In this document: piece after piece, positions 2,709-24,645 of the stretch
Position numbering within the stretch: position 1 is the stretch's first letter
Layout of the letters: every line of letters begins with the position of its first letter
IMG/VR virus record: IMGVR_UViG_3300033144_002003
Location: 1 to 24,645 of that record
From: a virus
DNA: 24,645 nucleotides
Reading direction: 5' to 3' (one strand)
Notes under the pieces: generated by a model
Told to the model about the DNA's origin: nothing
Seen by the model: the letters and a program-made list of their open reading frames with translations, nothing else
Database searches by the model: none
Position numbers and translations under genes: made by a program

Positions 2709-3041
2709 TTAATCTTTTTTGTAATCAAATTTATAAGATACTTTACTTTTCTTTTCCACTTCAACATCCTGTATAGACACTACGAAGTCCTCATACTTCC
2801 CTTTCACATTGCTATACTTCCATATACTCCTAAGAACCCTTTCTTTAGTGTTCTCTGTAGGAAACTCATTATTACTATTCAGAGTAATAGGATATTTCTT
2901 TATCTTAAAGTACTTTATATGTTTATTAGAAGCTCTCCTTTTTATTCCTTCAATTCTATGATTGATCTTATCTAGCTCTTTCTTAGGAAAGTACTTGATA
3001 GTGAAGTTAGACACACATACTTCTGGGACTTCTTCGTTCAT
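2709..3041 (-). CDS. Hypothetical protein, first gene of the leftward set (110 aa)
   Basis: The 110-residue product is basic and Lys-rich (for example HRIEGIKRRASNKHIKYFKIKK), with likely beta strands around VCVSNFTIKYF and DFVVSIQDVEVEKK. No recognisable domain is present. It starts at 3041, about 23 bp from the nearer inverted repeat at 3064-3084. It is therefore the gene most directly exposed to any regulator binding the divergent control region. A nucleic-acid-binding role is possible from its charge but is only an inference. Confidence 0.7.
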   Translation of the reverse strand: MNEEVPEVCVSNFTIKYFPKKELDKINHRIEGIKRRASNKHIKYFKIKKYPITLNSNNEFPTENTKERVLRSIWKYSNVKGKYEDFVVSIQDVEVEKKSKVSYKFDYKKD

Positions 3042-3063
3042 AATTAAAAGTTTAAGTTTTTGC

Positions 3064-3084
3064 TAATGTAAGGAAATTACATTA
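3064..3084. promoter_or_regulatory. Perfect palindrome in the divergent control region (site 1)
   Basis: TAATGTAA (3064-3071) and TTACATTA (3077-3084) form an exact 8-bp inverted repeat around the 5-bp spacer GGAAA. It lies between the divergent genes starting at 3041 and 3133. It shares the core TGTAA-N5-TTACA with a second palindrome centred 22 bp away. This spacing puts both on one face of the helix, as expected for two dimeric operator sites. The regulator is unknown. The winged-helix-like product of 3133-3456 is an obvious candidate. Confidence 0.6.
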
Positions 3085-3087
3085 AAC

Positions 3088-3109
3088 TTGTAAATAAATT
3101 ACAATAGAA
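3088..3109 (+). promoter_or_regulatory. Palindromic promoter/operator element (site 2)
   Basis: TTGTAA (3088-3093) and TTACAA (3099-3104) form a perfect inverted repeat around ATAAA and are followed by TAGAA. A near copy occurs at 23300-23321 upstream of another rightward gene. Over 26 aligned bases the two differ at five positions, four of them in the spacer. Conservation of the asymmetric TAGAA tail on the same strand argues for an orientation-specific element such as a promoter, not only an operator. It ends 23 bp before the start codon at 3133. No standard Bacteroidota TAnnTTTG box is seen in the region. Confidence 0.6.
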
Positions 3110-3132
3110 TATTAAAATAAATTATATAAACG

Positions 3133-3456
3133 ATGGGAAGAGGGCTTAGATGTGTACATGAGAGTAATCCGTTTGAAGAGGAAGTATCTTTAATGGATCA
3201 GAGAGGTATGCTTATATTATGTAGCTTAAACAAGCAAGGTCTTAATATGCTTGATTATTTATTAAGACATGGTAATGTATATGAAGAGATGTTTGTAATA
3301 TCTACAGACGACTATTTATCAGCTACAGGACTTACTTCTGCTAAATCTTTCTACCTAGGTATTGATAATTTAATAAGATGGGATGTCATTGCTAAGAGTA
3401 AAGAGGTAAATTTTTATTATATTAACACTAAGTTCTTCCCTAATGTTGAACTTTGA
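3133..3456 (+). CDS. Winged-helix-like DNA-binding protein
   Basis: This 107-residue protein resembles small winged-helix proteins of the RepL/replication-initiator type. Residues 54-82 have the pattern FVISTDDYLSATGLTSAKSFYLGIDNLI, in which a helix-turn-helix is followed by a helix ending in LIRWDVI. YYINTKFFPN (95-104) looks like the closing wing strand. The family binds DNA, either at origins or as a transcription regulator. The gene is first in the rightward block, directly downstream of two palindromes that could be its own operators. A role as regulator of late transcription, or of the switch between the two arms, would fit this position. That role is inferred from context, and only the wing and helix pattern is seen. 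Confidence 0.65.
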   Translation: MGRGLRCVHESNPFEEEVSLMDQRGMLILCSLNKQGLNMLDYLLRHGNVYEEMFVISTDDYLSATGLTSAKSFYLGIDNLIRWDVIAKSKEVNFYYINTKFFPNVEL

Positions 3457-23299: not shown

Positions 23300-23321
23300 T
23301 TGTAATATATTTACAATAGAA
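23300..23321 (+). promoter_or_regulatory. Palindromic promoter/operator element (site 3)
   Basis: TTGTAA (23300-23305) and TTACAA (23311-23316) form a perfect inverted repeat around TATAT and are followed by TAGAA. It nearly duplicates site 2 at 3088-3109. Over 26 bases there are five differences, four of them in the spacer. It lies in the 42-bp gap before the next gene, ending 11 bp before its ATG. No gap in the tail gene block before this exceeds 3 bp, so a new transcription unit likely begins here. Confidence 0.6.
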
Positions 23322-23332
23322 CATTTATCAAT

Positions 23333-24645
23333 ATGGGAGATTTCGGTTTATATCAAGCGTTAAGAGGAACTGACAATTGGGCGCAGAAGCGTCAAGATAA
23401 GATGCAGTCTTTAATGATTGCTAGAGAAAGAGACCAGAACTCTCAGAAAGAGCTTAAGCAGTCTATGGAGCTAGAACAAGGTATGCAAAAGTACTTTGAC
23501 GAAATGAAAAACCTAGATGCTCTATCCGAAGATCAAGGAAGGATCAATGATGAAGAGAAGAAAGCTAGGAGAAAGATTTATAAAGGTATAGCTGCTGCTA
23601 ACGGGAACTTAAAAGCTTACATGTCTTCTGGTGGTATTTCAGCTATGAGCGATTACAGGAACTCTGTATTAAACTCTGAAGCTGCTAAAAACGCTGCAAC
23701 TAATAAAGCTAACTATGCCAACTGGATGAAAGACGCTAGTGATGGTAAGTTTATTAACGAGGTTAATGTTGAAGTGCCTGTAATGAAGGATGGTGAGCCT
23801 GTGTTAGATGATAATGGTAAGCCGAAAACTCAAATTAAGAGTGTTTCAATGAAACAACAAGCTGCATTATTCCAAAAAGGAATTATTAAAAGGATGAATT
23901 ACGGTGGTGCTGAGGAAGCTGTAAAAATCAACATGTTCGATTTTGCAGATCAAGCTAAAGATCCAAACAATCCTTATTACGCAGAGAATGTAACTACAAG
24001 CGATATTATAACATTAGCAAGGAGCAGAGGTGCTGGCTTACCTCAAGCTAAATCTATAGCTAAAGATTACGCTATGAATACGGCTAGTAGCGGTCAAGCG
24101 TGGAAGTGGGGTAAAGAAGATTATGATGAAGCCCTATTAAAGCAAGCTAAAGCAGCTAAGCTGAGAGGTCTGGGCAGAGGTAAAGGAGGGTCTAGTAAAA
24201 CAATGATCACAAATCAACTAGCTCCAGCTCTTCTAAATAGGCTTCCAGAAGGAGGTAAAACGCAGTTTGGCTTAAAAGACGATAAGATGTGGTCTGATGT
24301 GTACGGCTTAAGAAGCGACTCTAAAACTAATATGACTAAACCAACCAGACCGCTAGTGATTACAGACAGAGACACTGACGCTGTTTATGATGCGTCAAAC
24401 GTTTTAGACATTAAGTTTACTGGAGAGTATATTAAAAAGAACGGAGAGGTATACGCTGTAACTGACGTAGTTTATGATGCAGACGAACCTAGAAATAAAA
24501 ATCCTCATGTAGAAGATTTCTTTGGTAAAAATAATCTTACAGATGATGACACAAGGCATAATTGGCAGTTTGTAGACGCTGGAGATGTATGGAATGAAAA
24601 TCAATTAGACGCTGCTGAGATAGATTCTGGCAAAGACGTTGTTAG
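23333..24645 (+). CDS. Cargo-type helical protein, cut by the window edge
   Basis: ATG at 23333 starts an open frame of 437 codons that runs to the window end, so the C-terminus is missing. The protein starts MGDFGLYQALRGTDNWAQKR and is charged and helical over about 100 residues. It continues with ISAMSDYRNSVLNSEAAKNA and a VPVMKDGEPVLDDNGKPKTQ segment, a layout I associate with internal cargo proteins of crAss-like virions. Around residue 280 there is a Lys/Gly-rich stretch (AKLRGLGRGKGG). In that lineage a giant virion RNA polymerase is commonly encoded just beyond this point. The palindromic element before the start suggests a separate promoter. Confidence 0.7.
   Translation, partial: MGDFGLYQALRGTDNWAQKRQDKMQSLMIARERDQNSQKELKQSMELEQGMQKYFDEMKNLDALSEDQGRINDEEKKARRKIYKGIAAANGNLKAYMSSGGISAMSDYRNSVLNSEAAKNAATNKANYANWMKDASDGKFINEVNVEVPVMKDGEPVLDDNGKPKTQIKSVSMKQQAALFQKGIIKRMNYGGAEEAVKINMFDFADQAKDPNNPYYAENVTTSDIITLARSRGAGLPQAKSIAKDYAMNTASSGQAWKWGKEDYDEALLKQAKAAKLRGLGRGKGGSSKTMITNQLAPALLNRLPEGGKTQFGLKDDKMWSDVYGLRSDSKTNMTKPTRPLVITDRDTDAVYDASNVLDIKFTGEYIKKNGEVYAVTDVVYDADEPRNKNPHVEDFFGKNNLTDDDTRHNWQFVDAGDVWNENQLDAAEIDSGKDVV

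Follow-up and report, generated by a model that had tools for sequence, protein, structure and literature searches.

In phage switches of the lambda OR type, two divergent promoters share dyads and a small HTH protein is encoded next to them, while the virion RNA polymerase of coliphage N4 reads hairpin promoters. In cultured Crassvirales, transcription proceeds through early, middle (replication) and late phases, the last of which has been attributed to the host RNA polymerase (PMC10136315, PMC8375218). In Bacteroidota, sigma-A promoters carry the -7 box TAnnTTTG, which spans -12 to -5 (PMC9723704, PMC6847099), and the -33 element is weak even in promoters of the host (PMC6847099). The literature searched contained no description of an operator or a promoter motif for any crAss-like phage, and the dyads described here are a first testable candidate for switching gene sets.

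The window, i.e., the whole stretch of viral DNA that was analysed (24,645 nucleotides), codes for a terminase, a portal and a major head protein that match crAss-like families (PHROG). Its TerL gives ~25–27% matches to cr125_1, ProJPt-Bp1 and cr50_1, and the window can be assigned to Crassvirales on the sequences of its terminase, portal and head protein. Most of the relatives that we collected have a head protein 68–100% identical to that of the window, on contigs of up to 71 kb; genome contigs searched for a host contained no relative. Single-protein searches with the cargo gene and the 803-aa gene of the window gave no matches, and an alignment found 15 loci. Giant ORFs come after the cargo gene in relatives, and one of them bears the D-x-D-G-D motif known from crAss-like RNA polymerases, which places the element at 23300 ahead of a cargo/polymerase unit. 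The giant ORFs at L104:11470-20000 and L111:5732-16003, which carry the motif SDADHDGDK and have no significant PHROG or Pfam match, likely encode a very diverged crAss-type RNA polymerase of this lineage.

Two similar elements in the window

The element at 3088–3113 (TTGTAAATAAATTACAATAGAATATT) and that at 23300–23325 (TTGTAATATATTTACAATAGAACATT) are identical at 21 of 26 positions. The mismatches fall at positions 7, 8, 9, 11 and 23, and our recount agrees with the initial annotation in placing four of the five in the spacer. Both copies lie within short intergenic stretches preceding rightward genes, and the annotated distances to the start codons were confirmed (23 bp to 3133 and 11 bp to 23333). 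The motif TTGTAA-N5-TTACAATAGAA occurs exactly at 3088 and 23300 and nowhere else in the window, where a scan allowing up to three mismatches returned five matches against 0.36 expected. The sequence is AT-rich, and same-strand pairs with at least 21/26 identity number 12 in the window and 3–7 in four shuffles; the similarity is near chance and was rejected as proof of an element. Given its weakness when taken alone, the case depends on position and on conservation in relatives, and it is by the sequences of the relatives that the element is judged to be real.

At the first copy, the operator candidate is a 17-bp dyad without strand, TTGTAA-N5-TTACAA (3088–3104). A second perfect dyad, ATGTAA-N5-TTACAT (3066–3082), escaped the initial annotation; it is situated 22 bp away, centre to centre, and overlaps a leftward -7 box. 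The best rightward box is TAAACTTG (3083–3090, + strand; predicted start ~3095), preceded 20 bp upstream by a TTG resembling a -33 element (3060–3062, + strand; consensus in PMC6847099 and PMC2483708). The leftward box TACATTAG (3063–3070, - strand; predicted start ~3058), which also has five of the six fixed bases and is exact as TACATTTG in L011, serves the divergent 110-aa gene (2709–3041, - strand). At the second copy, the 17-bp dyad TTGTAATATATTTACAA (23300–23316, no strand) contains the one-mismatch box TATATTTA (23306–23313, + strand; predicted start ~23318), homologous to the TAnATTTA of relatives and without a TTG ~20 bp upstream. Downstream lies the first cargo gene (23333–24645, + strand), whose start MADWGLYSALRGTD is conserved in relatives. 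The boxes of both copies match five of six fixed bases, several registers are possible, and their positions are uncertain by a few bases. The original statement that no TAnnTTTG host-type box lies near either copy overlooked these one-mismatch boxes, which overlap both. The proposal that the elements mark promoters of two late units fares better, both being at promoter position (for the terminase operon and the cargo/virion-RNAP operon), with promoter boxes at the homologous places in relatives.

The palindrome is followed on the + strand of both copies by TAGAA (3105–3109 and 23317–23321), as annotated. At the first copy, this extension, which is otherwise confined to the closest relatives, probably belongs to the early transcribed region; at the second, the predicted +1 is the A at 23318, with a leader of 15 nt. 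It was rightly noted that a symmetric operator has no need of TAGAA; this does not argue against an operator, as TAGAA can begin the transcript.

Dyads and promoter boxes in relatives

At the place homologous to the first copy, between the gene for the 110-aa protein and the terminase operon, L004–L007 and L009 carry TTGTAATATATTTACAATAGAA, with a dyad base-identical to the cargo dyad of the window. L008 and L011 keep TTGTA-N7-TACAA and have no TAGAA, and more distant relatives have a 17-bp dyad of the form [ATG]TGTA-N7-TACA[TCA]. TGTA-N7-TACA is present in 17/17 homologous divergent regions (shuffles: mean 0.13, maximum 2), the dyad being searched as a fixed pattern, so that the invariance of its bases is by construction and the presence rates alone count as evidence. 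Since the loci are related, the dyad and box counts given here, which treat them separately, are not independent. In distant relatives, the dyad is located 8–9 bp from one TAnnTTTG box, exact or nearly so, and 16–19 bp from the other, the two boxes facing outwards. The 3088 dyad lies 17 bp from its leftward box, as do the dyads of L004, L008, L011 and L042, and this spacing identifies it as the equivalent of the one dyad that relatives have there. The 3066 dyad was added within the close group, and L007 has lost half of it. In L005, L006 and L009, extra sequence separates the dyads from the homologue of the leftward 110-aa gene, and the leftward promoter may now serve a different gene.

Unlike the dyad and the host-type boxes, TAGAA does not persist in L008, L011 or any more distant relative, which argues against the phage-specific promoter that had been suggested. 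An exact scan of all viral contigs for the full motif likewise gave no indication of a general phage promoter: it returned 50 stretches, which occupy the homologous place only in five close relatives and the nearly identical contig L003, and which outside the window's own group lie mostly inside genes. A recurrent, non-homologous TTGTAATCCCATTACAATAGAA before a 730-aa gene of other phages (L072, L074, L098–L101) was taken as coincidence, as was the motif of L091, where an ATG follows 3 bp downstream and other virion proteins are encoded.

Relatives often have exact boxes at the terminase-side place. The rightward box is exact as TAAATTTG in L004 and as TAACTTTG in L008 and L011, and the corresponding intergenic region contains an exact TAnnTTTG box in L004, L008, L011, L022, L030, L032, L042, L051, L134 and L139. 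Throughout the relatives, 39 genes have an exact box within 50 bp of the start codon against 9.8 expected, and eight exact boxes lie 4 bp before an ATG against 0.25 expected; examples of this spacing, found at many genes, are L115:14998, L134:677, L109:7509(-) and L104:9929. With a start expected 4–5 nt after the box, such spacing predicts leaderless or nearly leaderless messages; few messages of F. johnsoniae and F. psychrophilum are of the leaderless kind (PMC6847099, PMC9723704). The uncultured lineage is thus indicated to use host-type, often leaderless, promoters for late genes. Elsewhere in the genome, a terminator-like hairpin with a T-run followed by TAnnTTTA precedes a conserved gene for a protein of ~233 aa (window 13664, L110:13976, L116:5468, L051:11606), a site predicted to be a promoter directly after a terminator within the structural operon. 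A strong TATATTTG box lies 14–24 bp before the ATG, upstream of the gene preceding the head protein gene, in relatives such as L103:14998, L110:8950 and L116:457; conserved among relatives, it is missing from the homologous place in the window (8624).

Most relatives have TA[TCA]ATTTA 4 bp before the ATG of the cargo gene, and the window keeps the core TAATATATTTACAATA, set 15 bases farther from the start codon. None of the relatives examined has the left arm of the dyad here, the promoter alone being conserved; the operator at the cargo gene is therefore either specific to the lineage of the window or a chance gain.

Two near-complete relatives each contain one additional intergenic dyad, before the same operon (a small ORF, a Sak4-like ATPase and further genes). 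A scan for the Sak4-like ATPase gave 35 distinct loci, 27 of which have a dyad upstream (shuffles: mean 0.4, maximum 3). The right arm of this replication-operon dyad nearly always itself forms the box, as TGTA-N7-TACATTTA or TACATTTG. The prevailing form is RTGTA-N7-TACATTTA/G, in which orthologous promoters interchange A and G at the last box position, suggesting that one polymerase reads both TTTA and TTTG boxes. The Sak4-like loci L184–L193 form a group without such a dyad; they may depend on another regulator, or the regulon may have been lost there. Over 464 kb, 18 of 27 dyads are intergenic, though intergenic DNA makes up 6.7%. The outermost dyad position is symmetric in 11 of 19 distinct dyads, too loose a figure for a claim of covariation, which was dropped. 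A two-fold symmetric site, the candidate operator, is conserved at the promoters of more than one operon. In the named crAss-like phages FpV4, cr50_1, phi14:2 and crAss001, the dyad occurs 1–2 times per genome against 1–4 for a reversed-pattern control, and the operator hence seems particular to this uncultured lineage.

Competing readings of the elements

The reading that we favour, at somewhat better than even chances, is that each element combines a Bacteroidota sigma-A host-type promoter with a 17-bp palindromic operator of consensus TGTA-N7-TACA. A dimeric, phage-encoded DNA-binding protein would bind the dyads and time transcription by the host RNA polymerase. At 3060–3104, two dyads, two helical turns apart, would each cover the -7/start region of one divergent promoter, an arrangement in which a single regulator can switch both. 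At 23300, the dyad over the cargo promoter would tie the cargo/virion-RNAP operon to the regulator of the terminase-side dyads. Because dyads overlap the -7/start region at the replication promoter and at both divergent promoters of the window, repression is the simpler reading there, and the regulator would mainly repress rather than activate; the dyad of distant relatives falls into the -33 region of their divergent promoters, from which activation would also be possible. The presence of dyads at replication and structural operons fits a switch between middle and late expression, whose direction and timing we infer.

Rather unlikely in our view is that the dyad is an activator site that switches on weak late promoters, replacing the -33 element where the box alone is insufficient. 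The divergent promoters of distant relatives have poor -33 elements, and their dyad occupies just that region, 8–9 or 16–19 bp upstream of the -7 box. However, a weak -33 element is nothing unusual in a Bacteroidota promoter (PMC6847099), and dyads overlap -7 boxes in the window as well as at the replication operon, an arrangement that suits repression.

We also regard it as unlikely that the elements are nothing but host-type promoters and lack an operator, their palindrome arising as a by-product of AT-rich -7 boxes (TATATTTACA, TACATTTG) close together on both strands. The right arms do coincide with boxes (TTTACA, TACATTTA), boxes are strongly enriched before genes, and the cargo gene of relatives retains its box without a left arm. 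Nevertheless, the dyad in the divergent region of distant relatives stands 8–19 bp off both main boxes and yet is found in every region tested, the left arm TGTA precedes the right arm by exactly 11 bp in 27 of the 35 replication-operon loci, and the shuffles give just 0.13 and 0.4 for these two sites.

It is very unlikely that a phage RNA polymerase, such as the giant virion polymerase, uses the elements as its promoters, perhaps reading the dyad as a single-strand hairpin in the manner of the coliphage N4 virion polymerase. Relatives encode the giant D-x-D-G-D protein downstream of the cargo gene, the dyads can form hairpins of 4–9 bp in single-stranded DNA and precede the replication operon, and early and replication genes of Crassvirales are reportedly transcribed by the virion polymerase (PMC10136315). 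Against this, the hairpins are weak, the commonest replication-operon dyad folding no better than shuffles (z -0.4), conservation is lacking in the loops, the placement is explained by host-type boxes, and the same dyad is borne by the late operon, whose transcription is ascribed to the host polymerase. Nor do the elements resemble promoters of a single-subunit RNA polymerase, for which a long asymmetric motif, group-wide and strand-biased before genes, would be expected: TAGAA is lost in L008, L011 and beyond. A search for the T7-type polymerase domain PF00940 gave no match in eight related records and, being equally empty in control genomes, is uninformative. That the dyads are N4-like hairpin promoters of a packaged giant RNA polymerase, active ahead of the replication operon and a second time in the late phase, is highly improbable.

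Candidate regulator and comparison with known systems

If the promoters are under operator control, the gene at 3133–3456 (+ strand) is the first candidate for the regulator, as it adjoins the operator. It encodes a protein of 107 aa with a predicted winged-helix structure (pLDDT 88), and its homologues in relatives are encoded first in the terminase operon or close to its beginning. The copy in the window has no Pfam or PHROG match above the cut-off, HTH_36 is matched by 13 of 22 homologues, and a RepL-domain protein from a crAssphage is among its best viral fold matches; a fold search of the PDB returned generic winged-helix matches only, none at E<0.001. Members of the RepL-like family are usually named replication proteins, not regulators. 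Two repL copies are present in p-crAssphage (PMC10136315). We tentatively propose that the RepL-like product binds the dyads, an assignment that we regard as possible rather than probable. Alternatively, the role may belong to the product of a second gene, winged-helix-like by eye, in G001 (L103:1989-2405), or to a host protein. With a 17-bp site at the replication and terminase operons and a conserved small winged-helix gene beside the terminase-side site, a middle/late switch becomes directly testable.

Compared with the Bacteroidota sigma-A promoters of Flavobacterium and Bacteroides (TTTG/TAnnTTTG, -33/-7), the putative promoters described here resemble them in the sequence of the box, the 20-bp spacing (first copy) and the short distance to genes, and they differ in that the window boxes have five of six fixed bases and that many relatives have TTTA for TTTG and a predicted start at the ATG itself. 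As with the hairpin promoters of the N4 virion RNA polymerase, genes are preceded by an inverted repeat and the phage group packages a giant polymerase; unlike in N4, the loops are mostly of 5–7 nt and unconserved, the stems are weak and a host-type box is present. The candidate regulator resembles the RepL-like winged-helix proteins of crAss-like phages in predicted fold and through weak profile matches, whereas it is short (107 aa) and heads a structural operon instead of lying in a replication module, its role as a regulator being putative. Finally, as in divergent operator-promoter switches of the lambda OR type, dyads are common to two divergent promoters and a small HTH protein is encoded next to them; here, in contrast, the window has no visible lysogeny genes, the sites are single or double 17-bp TGTA-N7-TACA dyads, and their binding by the adjacent protein is putative.
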